From contig JAGBEH010000007.1 in assembly GCA_017937125.1 (NCBI GenBank), positions 310,001 through 374,000 on the forward strand: 64,000 nucleotides of DNA, read 5' to 3'. The DNA is from Alistipes sp. Its GTDB lineage: Bacteria > Bacteroidota > Bacteroidia > Bacteroidales > Rikenellaceae. The position numbers and the translations under genes were made by a program. How positions within the stretch are numbered: the stretch's first letter is position 1; every line of letters starts with the position of its first letter. Below are positions 3,276 to 57,039 of the stretch, piece after piece. Under the pieces are notes generated by a model. That model saw only the letters and a list, made by a program, of their open reading frames with translations. It searched no databases and had not been told where the DNA came from.

Positions 3276-3286
3276 CACACGCAAAT

Positions 3287-3359
3287 GCCTCTTTAGCTCA
3301 GTTGGTAGAGCACGACACTCTTAATGTTGGGGTCCAGGGTTCGAGCCCCTGAGGGGGTA
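3287..3359 (+). tRNA. tRNA-Lys(CUU)
   Basis: A 73-nt cloverleaf. The acceptor stem GCCTCTT pairs with AGGGGGT with G-U wobbles; D arm GCTC...GAGC; anticodon stem CGACA/TGTTG with loop CTCTTAA giving anticodon CUU; T arm CAGGG-TTCGAGC-CCCTG; discriminator A at 3359. The 3' CCA is not encoded. Confidence 0.93.
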
Positions 3360-3362
3360 CGG

Positions 3363-3391
3363 AAGCGGAAGATGAAAGTCTTCCGCTTTTT
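3363..3391 (+). terminator. Terminator after tRNA-Lys
   Basis: Stem AAGCGGAAGA at 3363-3372 with TCTTCCGCTT at 3379-3388, followed by further T bases. It ends the tRNA transcript and separates it from the AT-rich R-M island. Confidence 0.8.
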
Positions 3392-3564
3392 GTACTTGTA
3401 CACTTGGTAATATACTAAATATTGCCTAATTTTGAGCAGGGTTTCGGGTCGGATTTTTTATGAAGTTTGAATCTATACGAAACCAAAAGAGATTTAAGGA
3501 GAACCGATTTTGGCATATCGTAGTTTGTTGGGCTTTTTTGTTACTTTGTAGTGATACTTCTTTA

Positions 3565-5112
3565 ATGGCAAAAACTAAAAATAAATATGGACAATACTTT
3601 ACCATAAAATCGATTGCTGATTTTATGGTTGCTTTAATAACGCATGATAGAAGTTCGAATATCTTAGAGCCATCTTGCGGTGAGGGGGTGTTTCTAACAA
3701 GCTTGAAAGAACAAGGATATAATAATCTTAATGCTTATGAAATAGATTCATCTTTGAATAACTCTCATCATTTCGTACGATATGAAAGTTTCGTATCAGC
3801 GCCCATAAATGAAAAATATGATGTCATTATCGGTAATCCCCCTTATATCAGATGGAAAAACCTTGAAGAAGAATTGAAAGAAGAGTTAGAAGTGTCACCT
3901 CTGTGGAAACGATATTTCAATAGCCTTTGTGATTATTTTTTTATCTTTATACTCAAGAGTATAGAACAGCTTAATGATAACGGTGAATTAATTTTTATTT
4001 GTCCGGAATATTGGATGAATACCACTCATTCGCGAACATTAAGGGACTATATGCTTAATAATGGAGCTGTTACTGAAATATATTTATTCAAGGAAGCTCC
4101 TTTATTCGAAGGAGTTATATCTTCATTTGTGATATTTAAATACATTAAATCTCAGAGGACCGAACAAATATCATTTTATAAATATCTCAAAAAGAGTAAG
4201 CCGACAAAAGAGGATTTAATTGGTAAAACTTGTTTTGAAAGACAAGATATTCCTCAGTTTGTTATAGGAGAGAGATGGATTCTTGCCAATACTGAAAAAC
4301 GATGTTCTATAGTCTCTTTGGAAAAGGCATGTGAAAAACAGGCGCTGCTATTATTTGATTCCGATGCGAATATGTGCCGAATAGGAGATTTCTGCGATAT
4401 TGGTAACGGTATGGTTTCAGGTTTAGATAAAGCGTTTTGTGTAACCGATACAAGCGTTTTAAATGAAGATGAGAAAGCTGCTCTTATACATGTGTATAAA
4501 GCTAAAGATTTGCAACAATATTATAATATAACTGATAGTTATTATTTCTTTTTGCGGGATAATATAAGTGAATCTGCATTTAGAAGGCGGTACCCGCATA
4601 TCTATACAAAATTGTGCTCTTATAGGGAAGATTTATTAAAAAGATATAGTTACGGGCGAAACTTACAGATGTGGGAGTTCGCTTTCCCTCGCAATGAAAC
4701 TTTGTTCAAAAAAGAGCAAGAGAGAATTTTTGTACCTTGCAAGGAGCGTATCTCTCATAAACAATATTTTAGATTTGCTATAGCAGATTCTACAACTTAC
4801 CCATTGCAAGATGTAACTGCAATCTTAAAAAAACAGAATTGCAAAGAGAGTATATACTATATATTAGCATATTTGAACAGCGGTATGGTATTCGAATGGC
4901 TTAAATATAATGGTATAGTAAAGGGTGAAATTGTAGAGTTTTCCGAAACTCCTCTTGCTAGCATTCCATATCGTTGTATAAATTGGGATGATGAGCGCGA
5001 GGTTGGATGTCATAATAATATTGTTAAATATACACAACAATATGTTAAAACAAAAGATATTCAGAATCTTTCTTTTATTGAAGCAAACCTTAATACTTTA
5101 TTTTATGAGTAA
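3565..5112 (+). CDS. Type II DNA adenine-N6 methyltransferase (partner of a HincII-like nuclease)
   Basis: A 515-residue class I N6-adenine methyltransferase. It begins MAKTKNKYGQYFT (motif X), has the SAM loop ILEPSCGEGVF (motif I) near residue 31, and the catalytic motif IV in DVIIGNPPYIRW near residue 88. The C-terminal half is a likely target-recognition region, as in TaqI/Eco57I-type enzymes. An ATG at 3460 is in frame, but its extra residues look unrelated to the family, so 3565 is preferred. The gene is much more AT-rich than its surroundings and overlaps the nuclease gene by 8 bases. It is expected to protect the nuclease's site (GTYRAC by inference from HincII). Confidence 0.92.
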   Translation: MAKTKNKYGQYFTIKSIADFMVALITHDRSSNILEPSCGEGVFLTSLKEQGYNNLNAYEIDSSLNNSHHFVRYESFVSAPINEKYDVIIGNPPYIRWKNLEEELKEELEVSPLWKRYFNSLCDYFFIFILKSIEQLNDNGELIFICPEYWMNTTHSRTLRDYMLNNGAVTEIYLFKEAPLFEGVISSFVIFKYIKSQRTEQISFYKYLKKSKPTKEDLIGKTCFERQDIPQFVIGERWILANTEKRCSIVSLEKACEKQALLLFDSDANMCRIGDFCDIGNGMVSGLDKAFCVTDTSVLNEDEKAALIHVYKAKDLQQYYNITDSYYFFLRDNISESAFRRRYPHIYTKLCSYREDLLKRYSYGRNLQMWEFAFPRNETLFKKEQERIFVPCKERISHKQYFRFAIADSTTYPLQDVTAILKKQNCKESIYYILAYLNSGMVFEWLKYNGIVKGEIVEFSETPLASIPYRCINWDDEREVGCHNNIVKYTQQYVKTKDIQNLSFIEANLNTLFYE

Positions 5113-5887
5113 TATATCTTACGTTAAAATATTATCTTGGTTAGAAAACAAAGAAGTTGATCGTCCGAACGCTGCAGATAATGGTACTTTGTCTGGGCAT
5201 GCAGCAGGAGAACCTTTTGAGAAACTCGTATATCGTCACTTGAAGGAGTTATATCCAAATAATGTGTATAAGCAATATGAGTTCTTAAATGATTTATATA
5301 GAAGAAATCCTGAGAGTATTACAATCAAAGACCGACAAGCTCTTTTTAATTCGCCTGTTGCCTTATTCTTACTTAGTAGAGGTGATGCTGCAACACGGGA
5401 TTGGGATATTCAGAATGTATTTGAGGAGAAACAAAACGATACTGCTGATATCTTATTTCACAAAAATGAATATTTTGAATTGATAGATGTAAAGACGAGA
5501 AATATTTCAAAGGCAGCGCAGGCACCGAATATTATATCCGCTTATAAAGTTGCACAAATGTGTGCTATTATATTAGACAATCAAGATTTTGATACAGTAG
5601 GTATAAATTATGTTGAAGTTGATTGGTTGCCAAAAGAAGATAAATTAGTTTGCACACAAGCTCATTATGGGAACCTATTTAAAGCGACGCCTAATACTTT
5701 GTATATCAACTGGGCGGCGGCTATGCAAATACAGTTTCATGTATCTGAGTTAGATCAAACATATACGGGAACTTTGGAGGAATGGGCAAAAGCATATTTG
5801 AAAATGTTTGTTGCAAGTGCAGAACATCGTTGTGATATTATGTATAAAAAGTATGTAAAACCATTTAAAAAATATGTAGAAGAATAA
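5105..5887 (+). CDS. HincII-like type II restriction endonuclease
   Basis: A 260-residue protein that matches HincII (258 aa) closely as I remember that sequence: GTLSGHAAGEPFEKLVY, LFNSP..LFLLSRG, EEKQNDTADIL, DVKTRNISK, AQAPNIISAYK, YINWAAAMQIQFHV and a KPFKKY C-terminus. The catalytic PD-(D/E)xK residues D115, D128 and K130 correspond to HincII D114, D127 and K129. Q139 corresponds to the DNA-intercalating Q138. The predicted specificity is therefore GTY/RAC, blunt cutting; this is inferred, not seen. Start at the ATG overlapping the methyltransferase stop. AT-rich, probably acquired together with the methyltransferase. Confidence 0.93.
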   Translation: MSNISYVKILSWLENKEVDRPNAADNGTLSGHAAGEPFEKLVYRHLKELYPNNVYKQYEFLNDLYRRNPESITIKDRQALFNSPVALFLLSRGDAATRDWDIQNVFEEKQNDTADILFHKNEYFELIDVKTRNISKAAQAPNIISAYKVAQMCAIILDNQDFDTVGINYVEVDWLPKEDKLVCTQAHYGNLFKATPNTLYINWAAAMQIQFHVSELDQTYTGTLEEWAKAYLKMFVASAEHRCDIMYKKYVKPFKKYVEE

Positions 5888-25414: not shown

Positions 25415-26374
25415 CTATTCTCTCAAAAAATCTTTCGATACCACGACTTTTATGGCCCTGTGGAGTATGCCGAACTCGAGCGGGGTGGTACCCAACAGCT
25501 CCCCGTCTGCTTCGAGCATAATGTCGGGCGACGATGTTACGGTTATCTTGCTGCCCTGTACGTGCATAACGTGTCCTATCTGGTATATCTCGCCGTTGAA
25601 CAGCTTTTTCAGACGGAAGATTATGTGCCACCAGTGTACGGGGCGTATGAGCGTCATATCCAGCAACCCGTCGTCGGCTACGGCTGCGGGCAGCTGCTGG
25701 ATGCCGCCGCCGTTGTATTTGCAGATTCCCACGGCTATGCTGAACAGCAGGTCGTTGAACACCACCTGCCCGTCTACGCATACCTTCACGCCCGTCGATT
25801 TGTAGGTGAAGAACGAGCGTACGATACTCAGCGGATACAGCCAGCCGCCTTTGCGGCCTTTGGCTTTGAGGTGGTTGAAATGGCGGATTACGAAAGCGTC
25901 GAATCCCGAGCCGGCAACGTTGGCTATGTATCGTTTCTGGCGGAATTGCGACTCCTCGTATGTTATTTCGCCCACATCCTGAAGGAACGACTTCCCCTCC
26001 TTGATCGCGCGTATGGCATCCGCATAGCGTGTGGGGATGCCGAACATCCTTATCCAGTCGTTTCCCGTGCCGACGGATATTACCGACAGCAGCACTTCGT
26101 CGGGGCGCACCTGCTGCTGTATGAACAAGCCGTTTACCACCTCGTGCAGCGTGCCGTCGCCGCCTATGACTATTATCTTGCGATACCCTTTGTTTACCGC
26201 CGTTACTGTCAGCTCTACGGCGTGGTTACGATGCTCGGTGAATACGGGGTCGCACGGTATTTCATTATCCCGCAGCAGTTTGGAGATCTGCGGGAAATCT
26301 TCCAAACCCCGTCCCATTCCGGCGACGGGGTTTACGATTACGAACCAGCGTTCGTTTACGGGTAACTGCTCCAC
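25415..26374 (-). CDS. Diacylglycerol/lipid kinase family protein (YegS/DagK-like)
   Basis: A 319-residue cytoplasmic kinase of the DAGK catalytic family. NPVAGMGRG lies near the start, the nucleotide-binding signature IVIGGDGTLHEVVNG around residue 73, and VGTGNDWIRMFGIPT follows. The C-terminal beta-sandwich domain is also present. It probably phosphorylates a lipid such as diacylglycerol, undecaprenol or a sphingolipid precursor; Bacteroidota make sphingolipids, so the exact substrate is open. It lies 7 bases downstream of pepD, in the same direction. Confidence 0.88.
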   Translation of the reverse strand: MEQLPVNERWFVIVNPVAGMGRGLEDFPQISKLLRDNEIPCDPVFTEHRNHAVELTVTAVNKGYRKIIVIGGDGTLHEVVNGLFIQQQVRPDEVLLSVISVGTGNDWIRMFGIPTRYADAIRAIKEGKSFLQDVGEITYEESQFRQKRYIANVAGSGFDAFVIRHFNHLKAKGRKGGWLYPLSIVRSFFTYKSTGVKVCVDGQVVFNDLLFSIAVGICKYNGGGIQQLPAAVADDGLLDMTLIRPVHWWHIIFRLKKLFNGEIYQIGHVMHVQGSKITVTSSPDIMLEADGELLGTTPLEFGILHRAIKVVVSKDFLRE

Positions 26375-45258: not shown

Positions 45259-45915
45259 TTATGCCGTTGCGACGTCTGCGACCGTTTTTGCCGCAGGAGA
45301 CGCGGTTCGTAACGGGGGCTTGTGCATATATTCGGCTCTGAATCGGTTGAACGTGTCGCGCGACACCCCGTAGTCTTTGCATATTCGGGCGATGGTTTGC
45401 CCTCGGTCCAAGTCCTCCGATATCCGTGTCCTGTTGTCTATAAGCAGTCGGAGTTTGGGCGTGCTGCCTTTGCGGCGCCCCAATACGACGCCTTGTTTTT
45501 TCCGCAATTCGAGTGCTTCGCGCGTGCGCATAGATATAAGGTTGCGCTCTAATTCCGCAACGAGACCGAATGCGAAACAAAGCACTTTGCTGTTTATCGT
45601 GTCGTCGAACGAATAACGGTCCTTTGTACTGTACAGCGTGACATCTTTCTTTAGCAGATCGCCTACGATTGTCATAATGTCTGTGAGCGTACGGCTCAGT
45701 CGCGACAGTTCCGTGACGATCAGCGTGTCGCCCTTTTTCATACGCCGCAACAATGCGCCGAGTTTGCGGTCGTTACCGCGTTTTTTGCCGCTGACGATTT
45801 CGGTAACCCATTTGTCTACGACGATGTTTCTGCTTTCCGAAAATTTCTCGATTTCGTTTTGTTGATTCGCCAGTGTCTGTTTTCCGGTACTGACTCTTAA
45901 GTAAGCTATTGTCAT
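45259..45915 (-). CDS. Serine recombinase, Mpi-type DNA invertase
   Basis: A 218-residue site-specific recombinase of the small serine (resolvase/invertase) family. The catalytic serine is S9 in IAYLRVSTGKQT. Other active-site residues lie in TELSRLSRTLTDIM (arginines near 70), and the dimer helix region is AFGLVAELERNLISMRTREAL. A C-terminal helix-turn-helix (GQTIARICKDYGVSRDTFNR) binds the site. It resembles Bacteroides fragilis Mpi, the master invertase of phase-variable promoters. Its ATG lies 80 bases from a matching invertible segment (45996-46154), whose promoter points at it in the present orientation. Confidence 0.93.
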   Translation of the reverse strand: MTIAYLRVSTGKQTLANQQNEIEKFSESRNIVVDKWVTEIVSGKKRGNDRKLGALLRRMKKGDTLIVTELSRLSRTLTDIMTIVGDLLKKDVTLYSTKDRYSFDDTINSKVLCFAFGLVAELERNLISMRTREALELRKKQGVVLGRRKGSTPKLRLLIDNRTRISEDLDRGQTIARICKDYGVSRDTFNRFRAEYMHKPPLRTASPAAKTVADVATA

Positions 45916-45995
45916 CTATTTGAGTGTTGATCATTCATAAAAACGTATGAATCGACACACAAAAATCAGACTTTTATTGCTTAAAAATAGATGAT

Positions 45996-46009
45996 AAAAC
46001 GTTCGTTTT
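45996..46009 (+). repeat. Left invertible-element site (IRL)
   Basis: AAAACGTTCGTTTT, containing the 10-mer AAACGTTCGT that fits the recalled Mpi consensus ARACGTWCGT. The half-sites AAAACG and CGTTTT are themselves complementary, so only the central TT (46002-46003) gives direction. Confidence 0.9.
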
Positions 46010-46140
46010 CAGCGGCAAATATAATAATAAAAAAATCAATCGACCAAATTTTTCGGTTAGAATTTTGGCATTCATTGATTTACCCCCCCCCGCAATTTCG
46101 TAAAACACTAAAAATCAACGTAGTAACCGAATGCAAGAAA
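46010..46140. promoter_or_regulatory. Invertible promoter segment (phase switch of the pilus operon)
   Basis: 131 bp between the two sites. On the - strand it carries -33 TTTG (46045-46048), a 21-base spacer and -7 TATATTTG (46016-46023), reading toward the invertase gene. After inversion the -7 would lie at about 46127-46134 on +, some 90 bases before the first pilus gene. No perfect TAnnTTTG faces the pilus operon as assembled. A run of nine C lies at 46083-46091. Confidence 0.85.
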
Positions 46141-46154
46141 AAACGAACGTTTTT
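46141..46154 (-). repeat. Right invertible-element site (IRR)
   Basis: AAAACGAACGTTTT, the exact reverse complement of the left site at 45996-46009; central dinucleotide AA (46147-46148). Identity ends after 14 bp on both sides. Confidence 0.9.
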
Positions 46155-46223
46155 TCGAATATCGTATGCCGTAATGGATTGTTTCTTACGATTGTACGAG
46201 GAGTTACGATAATTTGTTGAAAA

Positions 46224-47837
46224 ATGAAAGGATATTGGGGTTTATTGGTATGCGTAGGCATATCGCTGTGTCAGCAGGTTTCGGCCCAGCAGTCGCGACA
46301 GGATTCATTGACCGTGATGTATCGTGTCGGACGGGGGGACGTCGAACCGCAATATGACGATAATGAGGCTGCAATTTCGTCTTTCATCGATCGCCTGCAA
46401 AAGATTTCGTCGGATTCGCTGTGCCGTATCAAACGCATTTCGTTTCGCGGATTGACGTCGCCCGACGGTGTATCTACGTATAATCTGGCACTGGCTGATA
46501 CGCGAGGCCGCAGTTTGTCCGATTTTATTTTGAGCAAGTTCGACGCGTCGAATATCGATGTCACGGTCGAAAAGTCCGGTATCGCTTGGGCGGAATTGGC
46601 GCAATTGGTCGAAGCGTCCGATATGGATCACCGCGATGAAGTGCTCGACATCATCAACAATGTGCCCGTATGGGTGAAAAGCAACGGTAAGATAGTCTCG
46701 TCCCGCAAACAGCAGTTGATGCGGATGCACTACGGCAATACCTATCGATATATGGCCAAGCGGTTTTTCCCGCTTTTGCGTCGTGCCGAAGCACGCGTGT
46801 CGTACATAGAGGATGCCGCACCCGACGAGAAGAAAGACCTGACCATTTCGGGCGAGGTCGTCGGCGACATAGTCGCTCACGAACTCGGTTCGGGACGTGA
46901 GATCGCTCGCGGTTCCGTGGAGGGTATGGTAGACGGCGAGATTACCGATATCGACCGCGATAAGGGAATCGTCACCGTACGAGGCAAGGTCCGCGGCCGC
47001 TCGAAAGGCGACATCACAGGTACGGTTACGGGAACGGTGATCGGAACCACGTCGCTGTCGGGACATGATCCCATTGTCGTCAAGGGCCCGATTCGTATAG
47101 ACGATGCCGATTCGATAAGAATCAACGGTACGTGGGACGAATCGCGCGGCGTGTCGGTCACGGGAGAGGTATCCGGTACTATGAGCGTCGTGGATACGGT
47201 CTATATCGATCCTCCGAAGCCTGTGGCGGTCGTCGAGCCCGAGCCTGAACCGGAGCCCGTTGTCGAGGAGAAGCCGGTCGTGGTGAAGGAGCGCAAGCCT
47301 TTCCATATGGCATTGAAAACCAATCTGCTTTACGATGCTGCACTGGTTCCGAATATCGGTATCGAATTCCATTTGGGACGCAGGTGGTCGCTCGGCGGAA
47401 ACTGGATGTATGCGTGGTGGAAGCAGGATAAGAATAATTACAGCTGGCGCGGTTACGGCGGCGAACTGGACCTCCGTAAATATTTCGGCCGCAAATCTGC
47501 CGAGCGTGCTTTGTCGGGGCATCATTTCGGAATTTATTTTCAGGGTGCGACCTACGATATAGGTGTCGGAAAGAAAGCCAATTTGAGTAAGTTGAGTTAC
47601 GGGGCAGGTATCGAGTATGGCTATTCGCTACCCGTTACGCGCAGTCTGAATATCGATTTCGGTATAGGTGCGGGGTATTTCGGCGGAAAATACGAAGTGT
47701 ATGAGCATAGGAATTCCCGCGACGAATGGATAGCGACCAACCGACGCCACTGGTTCGGTCCCACGAAACTCGAAATATCGCTCGTGTGGATTATCGGTCG
47801 CGGTAATTATAATGTAAAGAAAGAAGGAGACAAGTAA
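46224..47837 (+). CDS. DUF3575-like envelope protein, first gene of the pilus operon
   Basis: A 537-residue secreted protein (signal MKGYWGLLVCVGISLCQQVSA). The N-terminal 170 residues look OmpA-like (ISFRGLTSPDGVSTYNLALA, DTRGRSLSDFIL). A repetitive Gly/Val/Thr stretch follows (residues about 195-330: ISGEVVGDIVAHELGSGREI, VTGTVTGTVIG). A Pro/Glu linker (PEPEPEPVVEEKPVVV) leads to a C-terminal DUF3575-type barrel domain starting FHMALKTNLLYDAALVPNIG. DUF3575 proteins often head fimbrial clusters in Bacteroidales and may help anchor or assemble the pilus; this role is inferred. The middle repeat region is unusual. Confidence 0.75.
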   Translation: MKGYWGLLVCVGISLCQQVSAQQSRQDSLTVMYRVGRGDVEPQYDDNEAAISSFIDRLQKISSDSLCRIKRISFRGLTSPDGVSTYNLALADTRGRSLSDFILSKFDASNIDVTVEKSGIAWAELAQLVEASDMDHRDEVLDIINNVPVWVKSNGKIVSSRKQQLMRMHYGNTYRYMAKRFFPLLRRAEARVSYIEDAAPDEKKDLTISGEVVGDIVAHELGSGREIARGSVEGMVDGEITDIDRDKGIVTVRGKVRGRSKGDITGTVTGTVIGTTSLSGHDPIVVKGPIRIDDADSIRINGTWDESRGVSVTGEVSGTMSVVDTVYIDPPKPVAVVEPEPEPEPVVEEKPVVVKERKPFHMALKTNLLYDAALVPNIGIEFHLGRRWSLGGNWMYAWWKQDKNNYSWRGYGGELDLRKYFGRKSAERALSGHHFGIYFQGATYDIGVGKKANLSKLSYGAGIEYGYSLPVTRSLNIDFGIGAGYFGGKYEVYEHRNSRDEWIATNRRHWFGPTKLEISLVWIIGRGNYNVKKEGDK

Positions 47838-48790
47838 TGAAACGATATTTTGTATTCGGTTTACTGTGTGCCGGAATTCTGACAGCTTGCAAACACAGAG
47901 AGTTATACTATGAATTCGAGCATACGAAATCCGTACGCGTAGAATTCGACTGGTCGGCTGCTCCGACTGCCGATCCCGACGGTATGCGTGTGATATTTTA
48001 TCCCGTGGACGGCAATGCACGGGCGGTGGTGGAGAATCTCGAAGGCAAAAACGGCGGGGCGGTGGATGTCCCCGAGGGTACTTATAATGTCGTATGTTTC
48101 AATAACGATACGGAAAATATACGTTGGCGCGGTACGGGTTCCATTGAAACCATAGAGGCGTTTACCCGCAATACGGCGATTCTCGAGACTATGCAGGGCC
48201 CCGTCGATGTGCCGCGCGGAGATTCCGATACGGAGCCTATAGTGCTCGCTCCCGACCGTATGTGGCGCGACCGTCTCGACGGGGTCGTGATTTCGAAGGA
48301 GGATGAGACGGAGACCGTCATATCGTTTACGCCCGTTTCGGTTACACGGCACGCTACCTACGAAATATCGGGAGTCACAAACTCCGAAGCTATAACGAAT
48401 ATTCGCGGTTCTTTATCGGGTGTCTCAGGGTCTTTGTTTATGGGTTCGAATCTGCTGGCATCCGAGACATCTACCATCCCGTTCGACGGGATGGTAGATA
48501 AGACCGACGACACCAAGATTATCGGCGATTTCTATTTCTTCGGTTGCTGCGATACGCGACTGCGTCAGGCGAGCAGACACAAGTTCACGATATATTGTTG
48601 GTCGAAAGCGGGTAACGTTATGGCATCGTTCAACGTTACGGAGCAGCTGCACGGCGACGGGACCGATCCCGAGGAGGTGCATCTTGTAATGGAAGGAAAT
48701 ATAGACATTCCCGTTGCGGGTGTCGGCGACGGCGGTTTCGAACCGGGTGTCGGAGAGTGGAACGACGAGAATGAAGATTTGGATCTTTAA
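47837..48790 (+). CDS. DUF5119-like lipoprotein of the pilus operon
   Basis: A 317-residue lipoprotein (MKRYFVFGLLCAGILTAC; lipid at C18). It begins HRELYYEFEHTKSVRVEFDW followed by GMRVIFYPVDG, the pattern I associate with DUF5119 proteins of fimbrial clusters. It ends in an acidic tail (NDENEDLDL). It probably belongs to the anchor or minor-subunit group (FimB/Mfa2-like function), inferred from context. It overlaps the preceding stop by one base (TAATG). Confidence 0.7.
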   Translation: MKRYFVFGLLCAGILTACKHRELYYEFEHTKSVRVEFDWSAAPTADPDGMRVIFYPVDGNARAVVENLEGKNGGAVDVPEGTYNVVCFNNDTENIRWRGTGSIETIEAFTRNTAILETMQGPVDVPRGDSDTEPIVLAPDRMWRDRLDGVVISKEDETETVISFTPVSVTRHATYEISGVTNSEAITNIRGSLSGVSGSLFMGSNLLASETSTIPFDGMVDKTDDTKIIGDFYFFGCCDTRLRQASRHKFTIYCWSKAGNVMASFNVTEQLHGDGTDPEEVHLVMEGNIDIPVAGVGDGGFEPGVGEWNDENEDLDL

Positions 48791-48856
48791 TAACGCTTTA
48801 GTTTAATCTCATACAAATTTCAAAAAACAACATTGTTTAACTCAAATTTCACAACT

Positions 48857-49948
48857 ATGAAAAAGTCATTTATTTTTGCGACTCTTGCAGTTGCAATGGT
48901 AACGGTAAGCTGTTCGCAGGACGAATCGCTTGCAACCTACGCCACTTCGGATGCCAATGCTATCGACTTCAAGTCGTATGTACCTAAGTCTACCCGCGGT
49001 ACGGCTATCAACAATGCTACCGAACTTCAGGCTACCGATTTCGATGTATTCGCTTTCGAGGTCAGCACCAATAAGCAAATTATGGGTACTGCGACCGACG
49101 GTGTCAAGATCGCGTTTACTTCGGGTGCTTGGGACTACGATCAGGCTTCGGAGAAGGCATATTGGTCCGATGAGGCTATCGATTTCTATGCGGTATCTCC
49201 CGAGACTTTGACTAATCTCACTAAGAATTTCACCTCTGCGACTCAGACTTTGCACTATGAAGCTTCGGCTACCTGCGCAGACCAGAAGGACGTTATGTAT
49301 GCTTCCGTTAAGAATGCGACTAAGGGTGACCGTGCCGGCGACAACTCGAACGTAGCTACCGGTGCCGTTAAGTTCAATTTCAATCACGCTCTTGCTCAGA
49401 TCGTTTTCAAAGTCAAGACGTACGGCAAATTCGAAGTAGATGTCAATGATATAGCCGTTTTCGCTCAGAAAGAGGGTACTTTCACCTATTCGACCGAGGC
49501 TTGGACGAGCGTTAATGGACCTCAGCTCTATTCGATCGGTCTTGCTGCTCCCGTAACCGGAATCGGTACTACCGCTCAGGAAATCGGCAACGCGTCGAAT
49601 GCTCTGCTTCTTATCCCGCAGACTTTCGCTAAGTGGTCTACCGATAAGACTAATGCCGTTGCGCTTCCTACCGACCGTGCATATCTGAAAGTTTCCTGCA
49701 AAATCCGCAACGACGGCGGTTATATCTATGCCGATGCGGATAATTTCAAAGATATCTATATGCCGATCGCGATCAATTGGGTAAAGGGTAACAAATATAT
49801 CTATACCATCGGCTTCGGTAACACCGAAGGTGCTGCCGGCGGTGCAGGTTTCGACGAAAACGGTAATCCTATCCTCAATGATGTCCTCATCACGTTCGAT
49901 GCCGATGTAGCGGGTTGGACGGATGCATCCGAGGATGTAGAACTGTAA
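48857..49948 (+). CDS. Fimbrillin-family pilin, probably the major subunit
   Basis: A 363-residue lipoprotein pilin precursor (MKKSFIFATLAVAMVTVSC). The Mfa-like fimbrillin fold is indicated by TDFDVFAFEVST, AYWSDEAIDFYAVSPE, VKFNFNHALAQIVFKVKTYG and the C-terminal VLITFDADVAGWTDASEDVEL, where the last strand is donated during type V pilus assembly. The lipid precursor is normally matured by an Arg-gingipain-like protease; a cleavage region near STRGTA is plausible. Codon choice differs from the neighbours (more GCT, GGT, CGT, ACT), as in highly expressed genes, hence the major-subunit assignment. Confidence 0.85.
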   Translation: MKKSFIFATLAVAMVTVSCSQDESLATYATSDANAIDFKSYVPKSTRGTAINNATELQATDFDVFAFEVSTNKQIMGTATDGVKIAFTSGAWDYDQASEKAYWSDEAIDFYAVSPETLTNLTKNFTSATQTLHYEASATCADQKDVMYASVKNATKGDRAGDNSNVATGAVKFNFNHALAQIVFKVKTYGKFEVDVNDIAVFAQKEGTFTYSTEAWTSVNGPQLYSIGLAAPVTGIGTTAQEIGNASNALLLIPQTFAKWSTDKTNAVALPTDRAYLKVSCKIRNDGGYIYADADNFKDIYMPIAINWVKGNKYIYTIGFGNTEGAAGGAGFDENGNPILNDVLITFDADVAGWTDASEDVEL

Positions 49949-50101: not shown

Positions 50102-51205
50102 ATGAAACAGATTTTATTTTCAGGAGCGATGCTTTGCGGTGCCGCATTTATGTGTGCGGCGGTCGTATCGTGTTCGCGCAAGGCGACGGACGACTATACC
50201 GTTACCGTGAAAAACAACATCGGTTTTAATATAGAGTTGAACTCGTCGTGGAGCGATGCGAGCGCCAATGCTACTATTGCCAAATCCGACGCCGTTAATG
50301 GAAATTACGGATCCGATTGTTTCGGCGAGACGCGTGCGACACCCGTCACGACTCTTTATTCGACTTTCAACGTGTGGGCATACTCCTACGCGGGCAGTTG
50401 GACGGAGACCCTCACGCCGAACCTTATCGACTGCGAGGCCGTATCCAAGGTCGATGGCGTGTGGCGTACCGCCGATCCCCACGCGTGGCCGGGTGCGGGC
50501 GTGAACGTGCGATTTTTCGCATACGCTCCCGTAACGCTCGACGGCCTTACGGTCACGGCTGCTGCGGGCACGCCGAAATTAGACTATACGGTTCCCGCCG
50601 ATGTCGCCGACCAGCTCGACCTGCTTACGGCCTCTGCCGATGCGGCAGGCGACAGCAAGGGGTCCGTAAAATTGACTTTCAAGCACGCTCTTACGGCGGT
50701 GAAGTTCGTAACGGGCAATCAGATTCTTTCCGACGGCATAATTAAAAAAGTAACACTCAAAGGCGTTTATGGCAAAGGCACGTATTCTGTCGGCGCGACA
50801 TCATGGACCGGTTGGGGTAGCGTAATGGATTTTACGCAGGTCCTGAATGTCGCGACCGACGGTACGTCCGATGCTGTTATTACCGCTGCGGACCAAACGT
50901 TCATTATGATTCCGCAGACTTTGCCTGCGGGCGCGGCCGTCGAGATAGAAATCGAGGACGCCAAGGGCAAGACTCGCACTCGTTCGGCCTCTATTGCGGG
51001 CAAGACGTGGCCTATGGGCTCCGCCGTCAAATACCGCATTTCGACCAAGAACGACACCTTGACATTCGATGTCGAGATTACGGACTGGGATGCTGAGGAG
51101 AGCAATCGCGAACTTCCGATGGATAAGGGTATGTCGGGCGTCGGCGTCGAGGTCGAGGACTGGGGCACCGAAACGGGTAATCGCGAGCTCGATATGGAAC
51201 AATAA
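50102..51205 (+). CDS. Fimbrillin-family minor pilin, paralogue of the DGR target N-terminus
   Basis: A 367-residue lipoprotein (MKQILFSGAMLCGAAFMCAAVVSC; lipid at C24). It shares extended similarity with the first 370 residues of the next gene: WPGAGVNVRFFAYAPV here against WPGEGYVRFYAYAP there, YTVPADVADQLDLL against YTVPSDVADQKDLL, and LTFKHALTAVKFVT against LTFRHPLTAVKFVT. It lacks the long C-terminal region and the lectin domain. Its end repeats a short motif (ITDWDAEESNRELPMDKG, then EDWGTETGNRELDMEQ). It is probably the polymerising adaptor next to the hypervariable subunit, inferred from order and homology. A hairpin and a run of seven G lie upstream at 49977-50022. Confidence 0.8.
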   Translation: MKQILFSGAMLCGAAFMCAAVVSCSRKATDDYTVTVKNNIGFNIELNSSWSDASANATIAKSDAVNGNYGSDCFGETRATPVTTLYSTFNVWAYSYAGSWTETLTPNLIDCEAVSKVDGVWRTADPHAWPGAGVNVRFFAYAPVTLDGLTVTAAAGTPKLDYTVPADVADQLDLLTASADAAGDSKGSVKLTFKHALTAVKFVTGNQILSDGIIKKVTLKGVYGKGTYSVGATSWTGWGSVMDFTQVLNVATDGTSDAVITAADQTFIMIPQTLPAGAAVEIEIEDAKGKTRTRSASIAGKTWPMGSAVKYRISTKNDTLTFDVEITDWDAEESNRELPMDKGMSGVGVEVEDWGTETGNRELDMEQ

Positions 51206-51248
51206 TAATGAGTTATCCGAGTAAAAAAATTGAATGATCATAGAGATT

Positions 51249-53930
51249 ATGAAAAAGACGATTTATCAACTCCGAACTGTCGGGGTGTTTGCGGCGATAA
51301 CCTTATTCGCCGCCTGCTCCAAAGAGCATACGACTGATGTGAAAATCAATCCGAGCAAATACCTCGTTTTCGAGGTCGGAAATACCGACGATTGGGACGC
51401 CGAACATAAAAGCAATGTCGATAAGAAGGCTGCCGACGGCCTTTCGGTCGGCAATATCGACGGCGCGGCCGATTGCGCATATGCGGACGACGGGGTCGTG
51501 GCTATGGAGGGAATGAAGGGCGAAAACAAGCTCTATCTCCATACTTCCGTTTCGGATCGTATCGACATAGCGCGCATCGGCGCACAGACTCCCGCTACTC
51601 GCAACGTCCCCGTTACGATGGACAATTTTTACAGCTCTTTCAATGTTTACGGCTACGCATTCGAGGGTGTCTGGAGCGAGGATAACACACCCTCACTCAT
51701 CGACAACGAGTCCGTATCGAAGATCGACGGCATATGGCAGACCGTCAATCCGCACATTTGGCCCGGGGAGGGTTACGTGCGCTTCTACGCTTACGCTCCC
51801 GCCGATTTGAGCGGCCTTTCGGTAAGCGCTGCCAAGGGTACGCCCAAATTCAGCTATACCGTACCGAGCGACGTCGCCGATCAGAAGGACCTGCTTATCG
51901 CCGCCACCGAGCTGGAGGGCAACGGCGATACTCCCGTTAAATTGACGTTCCGTCATCCTCTTACGGCCGTCAAGTTCGTTACGAGCGCCAATATCATCGG
52001 CGGTACTATCAACAGTCTGTCCGTCAAGAACGTGTACGGTACGGGTACGTTCACTCCCGACGTTTCGGGCGCAGGCGCGTGGTCGGGACAGAGCACGGCC
52101 GTTTCGTATTCGCAGAATCTCGCACTCTCCGTATCCGACGGCGTTGCCGATCAGGAGGTGGCTGCGGGCGCTAAAACGTTTATGTTGATGCCTCAAACCT
52201 TGCCCGACGGCGCGAATATCACCGTCAATTTCACCGATAGCAAAGGCGATACTTTCGACCTCACCGCATCTGTCGCAGGCACCGTTTGGCCTATGGGCAA
52301 GACCGTTACCTACAGCATTTCCACTGCCAATATCGGCGGTACGTTCGTATTGGACGTTACGCCGACCATTTCGTGCGAATACGGCGGTGCAACGAATTTG
52401 TCTTATACGGTCAAGAGCTACAAGGAGTTCAAGTCGGGCAAGATCGAGGCTGCCGCTTGGACCTCCGAGTATTCTGTCGATAACGGTACGACGTGGAGCA
52501 CGACCAAACCTTCGTGGCTCACGACATTTACGGGCAGCGGCAACGGCAGTACGACAACAGCAGGCAACACATATACCGCAGCCATATCCGCACAGACGGG
52601 TTCGAGCGGTGCATCGGGATTCCCTGCCAATCCTACGGCCAATTACAATCTGTCGAACAGTACGGGCGGGGATGCCGTTCAGAATACCGCGAACTGTTAT
52701 ATAATCAAATCTTCGGGCACCTACCGTCTGCCTTTGGTCTATGGTAATGCTATTAAGGGCGGTACTACCAACTCGGCGGCCTATACCGCTACTTCGGGCA
52801 CGAACGTACTCGCGACGTTCAAGGACCACGCCGATGCCAATATCACGGGACCGTATATCTATGACAAATATACGCCTGCGAATGCCTGCATCGTATGGCA
52901 GGATGCCAATAATCTTTTGACTGAGGTGGCATTGTCGTCCGACAAACATTTCCTGACGTTCACCGTCTCCGCAGCCAATATCAAGGAGGGCAACTCCGTT
53001 GTAGCGGTTCGCGACGCTTCGAATAACGTACTTTGGAGCTGGCATATCTGGGTTACGAATACGGATCTTACGTCGAAAGCCGTTACCAACCATCAAAACA
53101 AGACATACAATATGATGCCTGTCAATCTGGGATGGGTTTCCGCGAGCGCGGGCGGTACGACTACTTATGCGGCTCGCAGTTGCAAGGTCCGTATCAAGCA
53201 GACGGGTACTACCAATGTCAAAGTTATGGACGTTCTTCAGAAAGGAGAGTCCGTTACAGTGGCTTCTACGGGCGGATGCTGCCCCTATTACCAGTGGGGA
53301 CGCAAAGACCCGATGCCGCCTTCGAACGGAGAGGGTAATACCGATCATACGCTTTATAATAATTCTTATACGTATACGAAGACCAATAGTCGGGTATCTT
53401 TAGGTACTTCGATAAAGAATCCTATGACGTTCTACTATTACAATAGCAGCGGTTATGTATGGTGTTCTACGACCTATAATAACTTGTGGAGTGCCAAGAA
53501 TACGGGTACGACGGCCAATGACGATGCGGTAACGAAGACTGTTTACGACCCGTGCCCCGTAGGTTACCATATGCCTGCTTCGAACGCTTTTACGGGCTTT
53601 ACTTCTACCGGAGATAATACAGGTACGAATACTCAGTGGAATGTTGTAGATACTGCTATTGCGACGAAGAAGGGGTATGAGTTCTACTGCAAGGCGATGG
53701 TCGGTACCACTAAAGACCCTTCGGGCGGTACTATCTTCTTCCCCGCTGCGGGTTATCGCAACGGCTCGTCCGGCGCACTGGGCAGCGTTACGACGTACGG
53801 CTGCTACTGGGCTGCTGTTCCGAACTCGGCTACCAGCGGGCGTTACTTGGGCTTCTACTCGTCGAGCGTGTACCCGCTCAACGGCAGCAACCGTGCGAAC
53901 GGCTACTGCGTTCGCCCTGTCCAAGAATAA
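51249..53930 (+). CDS. Hypervariable fimbrillin with C-terminal lectin-like domain (DGR target, likely pilus tip adhesin)
   Basis: An 893-residue lipoprotein (MKKTIYQLRTVGVFAAITLF, then AAC). Three parts are visible. A fimbrillin domain (about 30-375) is paralogous to the previous gene. A middle region (about 380-690) contains BACON-like and NCYIIKSSGTYRLPLVYG-type repeats common in Bacteroidota surface proteins. A C-terminal C-type-lectin/FGE-like domain begins around YDPCPVGYHMPASNAF and ends FPAAGYRNGSSGALG... NRANGYCVRPVQE. The last 65 residues are encoded by the DGR variable repeat; 14 codons there differ from the template (residues 839 to 886), giving Gly, Ser, Tyr or Cys. The ATG at 51234 is an alternative start. 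The likely role is tip adhesin with an evolving binding face. Confidence 0.9.
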   Translation: MKKTIYQLRTVGVFAAITLFAACSKEHTTDVKINPSKYLVFEVGNTDDWDAEHKSNVDKKAADGLSVGNIDGAADCAYADDGVVAMEGMKGENKLYLHTSVSDRIDIARIGAQTPATRNVPVTMDNFYSSFNVYGYAFEGVWSEDNTPSLIDNESVSKIDGIWQTVNPHIWPGEGYVRFYAYAPADLSGLSVSAAKGTPKFSYTVPSDVADQKDLLIAATELEGNGDTPVKLTFRHPLTAVKFVTSANIIGGTINSLSVKNVYGTGTFTPDVSGAGAWSGQSTAVSYSQNLALSVSDGVADQEVAAGAKTFMLMPQTLPDGANITVNFTDSKGDTFDLTASVAGTVWPMGKTVTYSISTANIGGTFVLDVTPTISCEYGGATNLSYTVKSYKEFKSGKIEAAAWTSEYSVDNGTTWSTTKPSWLTTFTGSGNGSTTTAGNTYTAAISAQTGSSGASGFPANPTANYNLSNSTGGDAVQNTANCYIIKSSGTYRLPLVYGNAIKGGTTNSAAYTATSGTNVLATFKDHADANITGPYIYDKYTPANACIVWQDANNLLTEVALSSDKHFLTFTVSAANIKEGNSVVAVRDASNNVLWSWHIWVTNTDLTSKAVTNHQNKTYNMMPVNLGWVSASAGGTTTYAARSCKVRIKQTGTTNVKVMDVLQKGESVTVASTGGCCPYYQWGRKDPMPPSNGEGNTDHTLYNNSYTYTKTNSRVSLGTSIKNPMTFYYYNSSGYVWCSTTYNNLWSAKNTGTTANDDAVTKTVYDPCPVGYHMPASNAFTGFTSTGDNTGTNTQWNVVDTAIATKKGYEFYCKAMVGTTKDPSGGTIFFPAAGYRNGSSGALGSVTTYGCYWAAVPNSATSGRYLGFYSSSVYPLNGSNRANGYCVRPVQE
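53735..53928 (+). repeat. DGR variable repeat (VR)
   Basis: 194 bp matching the template repeat at 55395-55588 with 18 differences, every one at a template adenine (13 A to G, 5 A to T). It lies at the 3' end of the target gene; its last 24 bases are unchanged and would form the initiation-of-mutagenic-homing segment. The stop codon overlaps its end. Confidence 0.98.
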
Positions 53931-53962
53931 TGGTTTGTTTCATTTGTTTGATTTGATTGATT

Positions 53963-53988
53963 TCCCGTCGGATTTCGATCCGACGGGA
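53963..53988 (+). other. Stem-loop 1 downstream of VR
   Basis: Perfect 11-bp stem TCCCGTCGGAT / ATCCGACGGGA with TTCG loop, 34 bases after VR. No copy exists beside the template repeat. Similar short hairpins close to VR assist target recognition in the Bordetella phage DGR. Confidence 0.75.
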
Positions 53989-53993
53989 TTAAA

Positions 53994-54021
53994 GATCGGC
54001 GCAGCCGATCGAAAATTTTTT
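53994..54021 (+). terminator. Stem-loop 2, possible terminator of the pilus operon
   Basis: GATCGGC / GCCGATC around GCA (53994-54010), then GAAAA and six T (54016-54021). A modest terminator, which would allow partial read-through into the DGR genes. Confidence 0.5.
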
Positions 54022-54037
54022 GAAAGATGAGTTTTGA

Positions 54038-54081
54038 GGACGCCGACCGAAATTTACGTCAGCAAATTTCGGCTGGCGTCC
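54038..54081. repeat. Stem-loop 3, long imperfect inverted repeat
   Basis: 18-base arms (54038-54055 and 54064-54081) match at 16 of 18 positions around an 8-base loop. Key parts: GGACGCC...CCGAAATTT and AAATTTCGG..GGCGTCC. Confidence 0.65.
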
Positions 54082-54144
54082 GAAAACGGATAAAGAAAGT
54101 GTCGGAGTATTCGATGTAAAACGATCGAGATCGTCCGAAAGAGT

Positions 54145-54780
54145 ATGACGAGTCGTGATTTCATACGGAGCGAGGCTGAAAATACCGATCGCATTATACT
54201 GTACCGCGAGGGGCTGTTCTGGAAAGCCTACGAGCGGTCGGCATTCGCGGTCTGTACCCAGATAAGGCCGTTCAAGCCCACGAAAAAGCGGCTGAAAGTA
54301 CTCGACGGCGGCGAGATCGTTTCCATCGGGTTTCCGTCGGCATCCGAGAACAGGGTGCTCGACGGTTTCGAACGTCTCGAAACCGAGCCCTGCAAATTGG
54401 TCGTCGCAACCGAGCGGCCGATCGATGCGAAGGAGTTCGAGGCGTGGAAATCCTCGATAGCGACGTCCCGACCACGACCCGAGCGCGACAAGGCCGAAGC
54501 CTGCGGTCGCGATGAAGGTAAGACTGCTCCCGTGCCGACGTTCCCGACCGCTGACAAGGTCGTTGCGGACGAGAACGAAGCACCTGCCGCCGAGCCGAGT
54601 GCCGACGGCGACCCTCTGGACGGACTCCCTGCCGCAGTGCGCTACGGAGAGGCCGATTTCACGCTGACGCAGGCGTGCGAGCTTGCGGCGCGTGTGAAAG
54701 GCTTCAATCTGGCGGACTCGACGCCGATGGAGTGTATATTTTTCATTTCCGAACTCAAAAAACTGCTGCGGAACCGCTGA
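54145..54780 (+). CDS. DGR accessory protein, MutS-domain-I-like (MSL) candidate
   Basis: A 211-residue protein. The N-terminal 110 residues (TDRIILYREGLFWKAYERSAFAV, FKPTKKRLKVLDGGEIVSIGFP) resemble the mismatch-recognition domain I of MutS, where the family has a similar phenylalanine-containing FxxxxFYE-like segment. A disordered Ala/Glu/Pro-rich linker follows (about 110-165), then a helical end (LTQACELAARVKGFNLADST... ISELKKLLRNR). MutS-like accessory genes have been reported in DGRs, as I recall. It lies between the target gene and avd, 8 bases before avd, so it is probably part of the retroelement. The exact activity is unknown. Confidence 0.6.
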   Translation: MTSRDFIRSEAENTDRIILYREGLFWKAYERSAFAVCTQIRPFKPTKKRLKVLDGGEIVSIGFPSASENRVLDGFERLETEPCKLVVATERPIDAKEFEAWKSSIATSRPRPERDKAEACGRDEGKTAPVPTFPTADKVVADENEAPAAEPSADGDPLDGLPAAVRYGEADFTLTQACELAARVKGFNLADSTPMECIFFISELKKLLRNR

Positions 54781-54788
54781 ACGATATT

Positions 54789-55169
54789 ATGGCCTATTAT
54801 GACAATCTGCCCGTTTATAAAGCGGCTTACGACCTTCTGCAAAGCATTTACCGCGATTCGGGAAACGTTCCGCGTGACGTACGATTCACGCTGGTAGAAA
54901 CACTTAAAAACGAACTGACGGATATTCTCGTACTGATCTACAAGGCCAATTCCACTTCGGCCAAACTCCCGCTCATAACCGAGGCGAGGGAGAGGCTCGT
55001 GAGTGTGAAGGTTAGGTTGCGTCTTCTGTACGATTTGCGGTATATCAACGTGAAGTTGTTCGCCCGCTTTTCGGATCAAGTCGAGGCTGTTTCGAAACAG
55101 CTCGCATCTTGGCAGAAATATGCGAAGGAGCGCGTCGGCAATACGCCCGACGACAATCCCCGCGAATAA
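54789..55169 (+). CDS. avd: Accessory variability determinant (Avd), four-helix bundle
   Basis: A 126-residue basic helical protein. The pattern YDNLPVYKAAYDLLQSIYRD, NVPRDVRFTLVETLKNELTDIL, LPLITEARERLVSVKVRLRL and LRYINVKLFARFSDQ is that of Avd and the related S23/four-helix-bundle family. Avd forms a pentameric barrel that binds the reverse transcriptase and template RNA and is required for cDNA synthesis in the Bordetella phage DGR. It sits 226 bases before the template repeat, between it and the MSL-like gene. The ATG at 54789 is chosen; upstream codons overlap the MSL gene. Confidence 0.93.
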   Translation: MAYYDNLPVYKAAYDLLQSIYRDSGNVPRDVRFTLVETLKNELTDILVLIYKANSTSAKLPLITEARERLVSVKVRLRLLYDLRYINVKLFARFSDQVEAVSKQLASWQKYAKERVGNTPDDNPRE

Positions 55170-55394
55170 AAGGCGCATCCGACTGACGGTTCCTATTTTA
55201 AGCAGAATTTTAGACCGGAGTTCCAAAAGTCAAGGCTTTCGGAAGTGTGTCTTGTAAATTCAGTAACCCACCGGCGATGGAAAAGCACTCGTGACGGATC
55301 GTATGGTATCGCGTCGCGTTTTCGTCGGTTATGAAAAACCAATCTGCGGCGGGGCTTCGCTCGGCGACTCTCCGTCACATTTAGCAAGCGGTTA
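55170..55394 (+). other. Leader of the DGR template RNA
   Basis: 225 bases between avd and the template repeat with no gene. In other DGRs the sequence around the template is transcribed and needed for priming and RT binding. It contains GC-rich self-complementary stretches (for example GGCGGGGCTTCG near 55347-55358) but I see no clear promoter. Confidence 0.5.
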
Positions 55395-55588
55395 CTTCTT
55401 CCCCGCTGCGGGTTATCGCAACAACTCGTCCGGCGCACTGAACAACGTTACGACGAACGGCTACTACTGGGCTGCTGTTCCGAACTCGGCTACCAACGGG
55501 CGTAACTTGAACTTCAACTCGTCGAACGTGAACCCGCTCAACAACAACAACCGTGCGAACGGCAACTGCGTTCGCCCTGTCCAAGAAT
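55395..55588 (+). repeat. DGR template repeat (TR)
   Basis: 194 bp holding 47 adenines, arranged mainly as 18 AAC codons in the frame of the target gene; 13 of these and one TAC are altered in VR. No non-adenine position of the 147 differs. Boundaries are set by loss of identity at 55394 and 55589. It lies 104 bases before the reverse transcriptase gene. Confidence 0.98.
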
Positions 55589-55692
55589 TTGCCGCTCTGC
55601 TTATTGAGGAACGTTTTTCGAATGAACGGAGGTTCCGATCGTCTCGCGACCGCTCCGCTCGCAAACGTCCGTAGGAAACCTAACTTGTAGAT

Positions 55693-57039
55693 ATGGAAAG
55701 CAGGTCTGATTTATTGACCGATATTTTCCGAGCCTATTTCGATGCGAGAAAACATAAGCGAAACACCCGAAGCCAACTTATCTTCGAGATGGATTTGGAA
55801 CATAATCTCGTTGAACTTTGCGAGCAAATCGCCAATCGGACTTATCGGCCGTCGCCGGGTATATGTTTCATCACGAACTATCCCGTAAAACGCGAAATAT
55901 TCGCATCTCCTTTCAGGGACAGAGTGGTGCATCATCTTCTGTTCGGCTACCTGTCTCCGATGTTCGAACGCAAAATGATTTACGACAGCTATTCCTGCCG
56001 AAAAGAGAAGGGAACGCTGCTCGGAATCAAACGTCTGGAACATCACGTGCGGAGCTGCACCGATAATTACCGATATTCGGCCTATATCCTGAAACTCGAT
56101 CTGCGAGGATATTTTATGAGCATCGACAAACGTCGGCTCTATGAGATAATAACCCGTACGATTGACAGGCATTGCCGCGAAGATCCAGTGAGAACCCGCA
56201 AAAACGGAGCGGGATTCGACAGGGAGCTTGCGGATTATCTGATACGGGCCGTATTGTTCCGCGATCCTGTCGCGGGATGCAAAGTGATCGGACGCCCTTC
56301 GGACTGGGACGGTTTGCCGCCGTCGAAAAGCCTGCTCAAATCGCCGCCAGGGGTGGGGCTGCCAATAGGCGACCTGACGTCGCAGCTGTTCAGCAATATT
56401 TATCTCGATGTGTTGGACGAGTTCGTCAAACGCAAACTCGGATGCCGTCATTACGGGCGCTATGTGGATGATTTCTACATCGTGCACCGAAGCCGCGAGT
56501 TTTTGTGCGGACTGATACCCGTAATACGCGAGTTTCTGCGCGACGAGTTGCAACTGACGCTCCATCCCGATAAGATAGTGCTCCAGCACTACACTCACGG
56601 GGCATTGTTCCTCGGTGCATACGTCTGCCCGCACAGGCGGTATTCGGCGGGAAGAACGATAGGACTGTTCAGAAAGGCCGTATGCAAGCTCGAAACGGAA
56701 TGCCGCAGTGGCAGGCCGACGTTCGAGCGGCTGACCGAGATGCTGTCGGTGATAAATTCGTATTGCGGCCATTTGATACATTTCAAGGCCTACAGGGTGC
56801 TCGACAAGCAGTTCGCTAATTCGCCTTTGAAGAGATATTTTCGCTTTACGCGCAATTACGGCAAAGCGAAAATCAAATATAAATACAAGGAACGCGAAAA
56901 AGACGTTCCCGCGGATACGGCCCGAGCGTATGTCGCCAGGAGAAACGATGCGGTGGCTGCGGCGACGGCCGACATAAAACGATGCGGACGGGTGTTGATT
57001 TATCCGCAGCCGATGAGAGCGGATGACAGGCCCCCGTAA
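55693..57039 (+). CDS. DGR reverse transcriptase
   Basis: A 448-residue reverse transcriptase that copies the template RNA with adenine-specific errors. Motifs: KREIFASPFRDRVVHHLLF (domain 1-2), YILKLDLRGYFMSID (domain 3), GLPIGDLTSQLFSNIYLD (domain 4; LPIGDLTSQ at residues 223-231) and GRYVDDFYIVHR (domain 5; catalytic YVDD at 257-260). The GxxxSQ form of domain 4 in place of GxxxSP marks DGR enzymes. The basic C-terminal tail (GKAKIKYKYKEREKD) may bind RNA or Avd. There is no maturase or endonuclease domain, which excludes group II introns. Confidence 0.97.
   Translation: MESRSDLLTDIFRAYFDARKHKRNTRSQLIFEMDLEHNLVELCEQIANRTYRPSPGICFITNYPVKREIFASPFRDRVVHHLLFGYLSPMFERKMIYDSYSCRKEKGTLLGIKRLEHHVRSCTDNYRYSAYILKLDLRGYFMSIDKRRLYEIITRTIDRHCREDPVRTRKNGAGFDRELADYLIRAVLFRDPVAGCKVIGRPSDWDGLPPSKSLLKSPPGVGLPIGDLTSQLFSNIYLDVLDEFVKRKLGCRHYGRYVDDFYIVHRSREFLCGLIPVIREFLRDELQLTLHPDKIVLQHYTHGALFLGAYVCPHRRYSAGRTIGLFRKAVCKLETECRSGRPTFERLTEMLSVINSYCGHLIHFKAYRVLDKQFANSPLKRYFRFTRNYGKAKIKYKYKEREKDVPADTARAYVARRNDAVAAATADIKRCGRVLIYPQPMRADDRPP

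Follow-up and report, generated by a model that had tools for sequence, protein, structure and literature searches.

Which protein does the diversity-generating retroelement (DGR) in a stretch of Alistipes sp. DNA diversify, and what is contributed by the structured RNA that stands in front of its template? The stretch, 64,000 nt long and referred to here as the window, carries a chromosomal DGR which, very probably, diversifies the adhesive tip of a pilus of the Bacteroidales type (type V) by means of a template RNA led by the RT-7 RNA. In relatives from the same genus, leader and template recur in series, and we lean towards the view that the templates of this genus form a library. All coordinates are those of the window, unless prefixed with the number of a locus (L) or of a genome (G, with its contig, C).

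A complete retroelement at the end of a fimbrillin operon

The DGR consists of the following parts, where TR is the template repeat, VR the variable repeat and RT the reverse transcriptase:

51249-53930, plus strand: DGR target, probable tip pilin, with a fimbrillin-like N-terminal half and a putative FISUMP/C-type-lectin-like C-terminus
53735-53928, plus strand: VR, with 18 mismatches to the TR, every one at a TR adenine
54145-54780, plus strand: MSL accessory protein, with a MutS-domain-I-like N-terminus, a variable linker and a conserved C-terminal helix
54789-55169, plus strand: Avd, accessory variability determinant (PHROG 3206 'Avd protein of DGR', 1.7e-25; Pfam bAvd, 8e-11)
55214-55402, plus strand: RT-7 RNA (RF03028), structured leader (151.8 bits, gathering score 116.8, E 2.9e-36)
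55262-55268, plus strand: 5′ strand of the RT-7 closing helix (AGTAACC), pairing with 55390-55396
55390-55396, plus strand: 3′ strand of the RT-7 closing helix (GGTTACT), abutting the TR
55395-55588, plus strand: TR, with 47 adenines and 18 AAC codons in the target frame
55589-55692, plus strand: spacer between TR and rt, 104 nt, in the same place as the Sp element of BPP-1
55693-57039, plus strand: DGR RT (RVT_1, 6e-14; PHROG 1423, 3.5e-87; PDB 8ub7, 1.8e-27)

The TR and VR form a 194-nt repeat pair with 91% identity, in which mismatches affect 18 of the 47 TR adenines and 0 of the 147 other bases (hypergeometric P = 4e-13); the mismatch counts agree exactly with those of a preliminary description of this DNA. 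The changes from TR to VR comprise 13 A to G, 5 A to T and no A to C; a passage of Schillinger et al. 2012 (PMC3521204) likewise has A replaced mostly by G and least often by C. The homology breaks off sharply at either end, its 3′ limit being the stop codon, and the final 24 nt are free of mismatches, with no difference between initiation of mutagenic homing (IMH) and IMH* sequences seen there. Adenine substitutions in the TR reach no stop codon, and the theoretical protein diversity amounts to ~10^26. Across the whole genome, the TR sequence occurs in two places only, the TR and the VR, and further VRs are ruled out by the same search.

The RT (448 aa) is intact and carries the motifs LPIGDLTSQ and YVDD, as previously noted; its top PDB match is 8ub7, which we take to be the RT of BPP-1. 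A retron or group II intron RT was considered and rejected, all NCBIfam matches being under their cut-offs. The presence of Avd, also noted earlier, is confirmed by the PHROG match and by a bAvd score of 42.8 bits against a cut-off of 40; the NCBIfam DivGenRetAVD match (55.7 bits) stays under its cut-off of 80, and no PDB match was obtained at E 0.1.

Eight nucleotides separate avd from the gene for MSL, which the preliminary description had overlooked along with RT-7 before the TR and the segment resembling an invertible promoter treated below. The N-terminus of MSL has a MutS-domain-I-like fold. In sequence, 7 of 23 family members show similarity to MutS_I (Pfam PF01624) at E ≤ 1 (best 7.6e-4), although the window protein alone yields no MutS_I match at that threshold and the family profile has no PDB sequence match. 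At 211 aa, MSL lacks the clamp and ATPase domains of MutS. Two residues past the conserved aromatic, where MutS has its mismatch-contacting Glu, the MSL family has a base (K/R in 21 of 23 members, H in 2 of 23). We infer that MSL has a function in the DGR; HRDC and MSL are both named as DGR accessories in a passage of an earlier report (PMC10053308). In one same-genus genome, a single open frame (L106:2699-3376) encodes both MSL and Avd.

Taken together, the intact RT, the Avd and a VR that ends the last gene of a fimbrillin operon support the previous assignment of this element as a genuine, complete DGR aimed at a fimbrillin. Judged from its sequence, the DGR was apparently active recently and may well be active at present.

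The diversified protein

The VR sits in frame at the C-terminal end of the open reading frame 51249-53930 (for which an alternative start, ATG at 51234, is possible), the last gene of the operon. The preceding genes are:

46224-47837, plus strand: DUF3575 protein, first gene of the pilus operon (Pfam DUF3575, 4e-39)
47837-48790, plus strand: DUF5119 protein, probable pilus anchor or accessory pilin (Pfam DUF5119, 1.6e-59)
48839-49948, plus strand: fimbrillin-like pilin (Pfam Mfa_like_1, 7e-25)
50102-51205, plus strand: fimbrillin-like pilin, paralogue of the target N-terminal half (Pfam Mfa_like_1, 4e-24)

The N-terminal half of the target is 49% identical over 257 aa to the neighboring pilin (50102-51205), and the N-termini of target homologues match Mfa_like_1 (L101 and L106) or P_gingi_FimA (L005) above the cut-offs; a profile built from 8 target homologues matches PDB 3ufi (BACOVA_04980) with E 4.5e-4. 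Through the paralogue and the homologues, the N-terminal region can be assigned a pilin fold within a fimbrillin operon, and the protein would be located at the pilus tip. The lectin-like C-terminus of the preliminary description is a putative assignment supported through homologues: that of L094 exceeds the Pfam Fib_succ_major cut-off (36.5 vs 33.9) and that of L004 falls barely under it (33.6), and there are sub-cut-off matches to Lcl_C (L094 and L106) and to TIGR02145 FISUMP (L003, L005 and L094). Weighing against this assignment, the C-terminus of the window target itself matches no lectin family in Pfam or NCBIfam, and its AlphaFold model has a predicted local distance difference test score (pLDDT) of 38 and was not used.

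An RT-7 RNA in front of the template

The gap between avd and the TR measures 225 nt and is mostly filled by RT-7, whose 189-nt match spans the full Rfam model (positions 1-191) and exceeds the gathering cut-off. This RNA, reportedly described in a 2017 paper by Weinberg, is known to us only as an RNA near RT genes; in the window, the full-length match is tied to a DGR template. The helix that closes RT-7 is paired in 186 of 196 cells over 28 sequences (out of 29 RT-7 sequences; in the omitted one, the 5′ strand was missed by the pattern but pairs by eye) and covaries, with the pairs AGTAACC/GGTTACT, AGCGGCC/GGCCGCT, AGCAGCC/GGCTGCT and AATAATC/GATTATT. Among 35 leaders from the arrays described below (43 RT-7 hits minus 8 duplicates), 221 of 245 cells are paired. 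RT-7 matches at E ≤ 1e-3 occur in 16 of 393 order-level genomes but in none of the 14 control genomes. Of the 16, 15 fall within the 27 of 393 that have an RT match at E ≤ 1e-40.

For all 13 loci in which a TR/VR pair and an RT-7 match were both present, we subtracted the coordinates of the helix end from those of the homology start; in 10 (the window, L003, L093, L097, L098, L100, L101, L102, L106 and L108), the helix ends -1 to +9 nt from the point where TR/VR homology begins. We propose that RT-7 and the TR reside on one RNA molecule, in which RT-7 would constitute the 5′ domain, docking RT and Avd, possibly with MSL, and stopping cDNA synthesis at the TR border.

Several observations speak against such a general role. 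Among the three remaining loci, the homology begins 25 nt past the closing helix in L004, the clear donor unit of L005 (5622-5808) has no RT-7 directly upstream, the gap being 104 nt, and the VR of L006 consists partly of N and so allows no comparison. The gathering score is reached in 1 of 393 order-level genomes, that of the window, and in 5 of 180 genus genomes. Under strict filters, no RT-7 match was obtained for 12 of the 27 genomes whose RT is related; none was found in L107 at E ≤ 0.01, nor in L007-L014 at the gathering score, and several of these loci do carry TR/VR pairs. Finally, by minimum free energy, the RNA comprising leader, TR and spacer folds no better than its shuffles (z 0.06).

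In one genome, two scattered RT-7-like leaders (L146 and L158, G059:C3) have no TR directly behind them; the same genome contains an array of 14 units.

Template arrays in related genomes

In relatives from the same genus, beyond anything that the single window of the preliminary description could reveal, TR-like segments stand in series, with the module of RT-7 and TR tandemly repeated. A genus-wide search, in which at most 13 candidates were scored per genome, detected RT-7 in 17 of 180. Of these 17, 10 have two or more units in a row (G460, G463, G468, G008, G006, G011, G059, G544, G566 and G462; the counts for G011 and G059 come from a locus-level RT-7 search), 4 have a single unit (the window, G455, G032 and G465), and in 3 the unit number is ambiguous (G467, G562 and G559). 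Up to 14 different templates lie between avd and rt. The gene order of the array loci (target, MSL, Avd, units, RT) is that of the window, the number of templates being the main difference.

By locus, there are 14 RT-7 matches in L105, 8 in L104, 21 in L103, 5 in L004, and 2 each in L006 and L005, the latter with three TR-like units; the matches have E 7e-12 or better, nearly all under the gathering score. The 21 matches of L103 comprise 13 between avd and rt and a duplicated block of 8 between the target and MSL. This eight-unit block is (nearly) exactly duplicated at 2401-5554 and 10061-13211 of L103, flanking MSL-Avd, and reflects either a true duplication or an assembly error. L004 and L005 are two DGRs on one contig, CANQGQ010000021.1. 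Not one of 60 TR-like segments (duplicates and one partial VR included) has an in-frame stop, a weak test because the segments were found by protein matches.

Do the arrayed units serve as templates? Judging from the pattern of differences, two VRs clearly derive from an internal array unit. Against unit 2 of 3, the L005 VR shows 19 differences, every one at A (P 1e-13); against unit 3 of 5, the L004 VR shows 9, again all at A, within a 188-nt match (9 of 13 over a longer span). As far as it can be read, the VR of L006 fits unit 2 of 2, with 7 of 7 differences at A over 84 nt and 88% of 8 over 88 nt. Furthermore, unit 5595 of L105 differs from unit 6016 at 20 positions, 15 of them A (P 4e-8 before correction for ~200 comparisons); it looks like an A-mutated copy of the latter, so that templates may themselves be recipients.

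By contrast with these loci, no single unit accounts for the VR in L103, L104, L105 and G419, where the best unit leaves 17, 36, 43 and 32 non-A differences, respectively. Only for L103 and L005 is the VR clearly better fitted as a mosaic than the units are; a mosaic origin of the VR is suggested for L103 and, by one analysis, for G419, and is unsupported for L104 and L105. The units of L103, L104, L105, L004 and L005 have an A fraction of 0.09-0.24, compared with 0.25-0.30 in single TRs. Codon-position bias of A was rejected as a template signature, and the AAC:AAT ratio was not used, because unchanged parts of the target show the same bias. The arrays are thus observed as anatomy, and their use as a menu of templates is suggested by the A-only differences in two or three loci.

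Some units in G419 and G349 lie far from their RT. G419 holds four tandem RT-7 and TR units as well as scattered ones (L089, at G419:C36:115758-117505, L090, L091, L092 and L127), and the four-unit array is on a different contig from the sole RT found at E ≤ 1e-40. In this genome, C33:90594, C14:4735 and C30:11219 share an identical 196-nt stretch; the module may therefore spread or be copied from one site to another. G349 (L093/L094) contains three RT-7-led TRs. One is on C15; the other two, on C5, are ~15 kb away from both the RT (26096) and the target VR (25717-25909), and no TR was seen between this VR and the RT.

A putative invertible promoter and the genomic neighborhood

Upstream of the pilus operon, we identified the following elements:

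45259-45915, minus strand: serine recombinase (resolvase family), probable segment invertase (Pfam Resolvase, 1.5e-33)
45993-46156, strand not applicable: putative invertible segment, with 17-nt inverted repeats at 45993-46009 and 46140-46156 (94% identity, 130 nt between them)
46016-46048, minus strand: promoter-consensus match within the segment, directed away from the operon (OFF)

The inverted repeats separate the recombinase gene (45259-45915) from the first pilus gene (46224), and their 14-nt core occurs in these two places only, with 1 mismatch allowed. The enclosed match is an exact one to TTTG-N(17-24)-TAnnTTTG, which we take to be the Bacteroidales promoter consensus; exact matches to it number 7 in 64 kb, against 0.68 expected. 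Probably, the pilus operon stands behind an invertible promoter that is OFF in the assembly and acts as an ON/OFF phase switch. Fimbriae of Bacteroides provide a likeness: a phase-variable fimbria-like locus is mentioned in a passage of a review (PMC12632263), and the window combines a recombinase gene with inverted repeats around a promoter-like site.

The left flank encodes a glutamyl-type tRNA synthetase, a cation efflux protein and the serine recombinase, and the right flank, downstream, has SufB/SufC/SufD/SufS-type genes. The possibility that the DGR belongs to a phage or prophage was rejected, the scanned flanks carrying ordinary genes.

Discussion

From these observations, the following mechanism can be proposed. 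The interval between avd and rt would be transcribed into a template RNA in which the RT-7 leader is followed, from 5′ to 3′, by the TR and a short spacer. RT and Avd, with MSL, would bind this RNA and make cDNA from it, misreading adenines, and synthesis would end at the RT-7 closing helix, so that the helix would determine how far the mutated cDNA, and with it TR/VR homology, extends on the 5′ side. Replacement of the VR by the cDNA would generate up to ~10^26 protein variants of the putative lectin-like tip, none with a stop codon, and the pilus operon would probably be switched ON and OFF, in addition, by the invertible promoter.

Could the window DGR instead be a fossil, once active and now silent, with a frozen VR? 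The case for present activity is made from sequence, and the putative operon promoter points away from the operon. However, the reading frames are open and none of the 147 non-adenine positions has drifted between TR and VR, which weighs against this explanation because a long-silent pair should gather non-A differences; we regard it as highly unlikely. That the target might be a free surface lipoprotein adhesin rather than a pilus tip is suggested by a lipobox-like cysteine at position 23, invariant in 8 of 8 homologues, and by the failure of the window protein to match any Pfam pilin family directly. Pilins, however, also begin as lipoproteins, according to a passage of the review mentioned above (PMC12632263), the operon holds two Mfa_like_1 pilins together with the DUF5119 and DUF3575 proteins, and the N-terminal half of the target is a paralogue of the adjacent pilin, with homologues in L101, L106 and L005 that match pilin families, all of which makes a free adhesin quite improbable. 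The tip of a pilus remains our preferred location for the diversified protein.

With regard to RT-7, it would be conceivable that this is a separate regulatory RNA, such as a promoter leader or an rt attenuator, outside the template RNA: it occupies the gap between avd and the TR, a possible promoter site, its Rfam name is taken from RTs, some related DGRs lack it, the donor unit of L005 has no copy of its own, and the leaders of L146 and L158 have no TR behind them. Such an RNA appears unlikely, given that RT-7 ends at the TR rather than at rt and that arrays of up to 14 templates show one RT-7 per template and one RT per locus. A more serious alternative concerns the arrays, which might not be RT templates at all but dead tandem duplications, or silent cassettes for ordinary homologous recombination. 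The units are poorer in A than single TRs, the VRs of L103, L104, L105 and G419 are explained by no single unit, and, L103 and L005 excepted, mosaic fits do not clearly favor the VRs over the units. On the other hand, RT-7 at E 7e-12 or better precedes the units of L103-L105, the segments are free of in-frame stops, weak as this test is, and the VRs of L005 and L004 differ from one unit each at A only (19 of 19, and 9 of 9 over 188 nt). We consider silent cassettes possible, if somewhat doubtful. The interpretation that we favor, with some reservation, is that the DGR templates of this genus form a library of tandem and scattered units, each consisting of an RT-7 leader and a TR, which are all served by one RT at the locus. 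Any unit could then rewrite the pilin tip with added A-mutation, units could be overwritten by each other's mutated copies, RT-7 would be a portable tag that turns a sequence into a template, and the window would represent the single-template state.

How does this system compare with known ones? It shares with the DGR of Bordetella phage BPP-1 the A-only changes between TR and VR, the Avd, the RT family and a VR at a C-terminus that, in the window, may be lectin-like, as judged from homologues, but differs in its bacterial pilin target with an operon and in the extra MSL gene. In BPP-1, according to part of one report (PMC12875486), the avd coding sequence flanks the TR on the 5′ side, and it is the 3′ spacer that is structured. 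By contrast, the 104-nt 3′ spacer of the window has no predicted fold above shuffles (the TR end and spacer, 55560-55692, fold more poorly than shuffles, z 1.1), and RT-7 fills most of the 225-nt gap between avd and the TR. Closer in target kind and host order are the DGRs of Bacteroides whose targets are type V tip pilins (Macadangdang et al. 2024, as cited in a passage of the review PMC12632263), which bear out the previous remark that pilin-type targets are known in Bacteroidales. Given these reports, the DGR of the window, taken by itself, simply adds a member to a known kind, and the arrangement is less exceptional than originally thought.

Multiple TRs, too, have been reported: Stenotrophomonas sp. 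SKA14 has two, alongside six VRs (PMC6642488), two crAss-like phages carry 'several template repeats' (PMC12386605), and Treponema denticola metagenomes contain multiple TRs per person (PMC4891356). The passages concerned do not describe long tandem arrays sharing a structured leader. In a search that covered a limited body of open-access literature, we found no earlier report of long leader-bearing template arrays or of RT-7 as a DGR part (the phrase 'RT-7 RNA' was absent), nor, judged by title, any DGR study of this genus; a search of Roux 2021 (PMC8144416) gave no relevant passage on several TRs, accessories, tandem arrangement or pilin. The DGR, MSL and tip-pilin targets are known, and the novelty rests on the RT-7-led template and the arrays in relatives.

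Taken alone, the window adds one more pilus-tip DGR, probably under an ON/OFF switch. Placing RT-7 in the template RNA would make this RNA family, for which we know of no function, a testable part of a DGR. Since the single-template window and the arrays differ mainly in the number of templates, both the role of the leader and the choice of template are directly testable. The arrays would show a retroelement holding a changeable set of templates, and would join two strategies of antigen variation, cassette choice and targeted random mutation, which to our knowledge are known only apart. If the library interpretation is true, the cell would draw on a menu of lectin scaffolds and add random changes to them.

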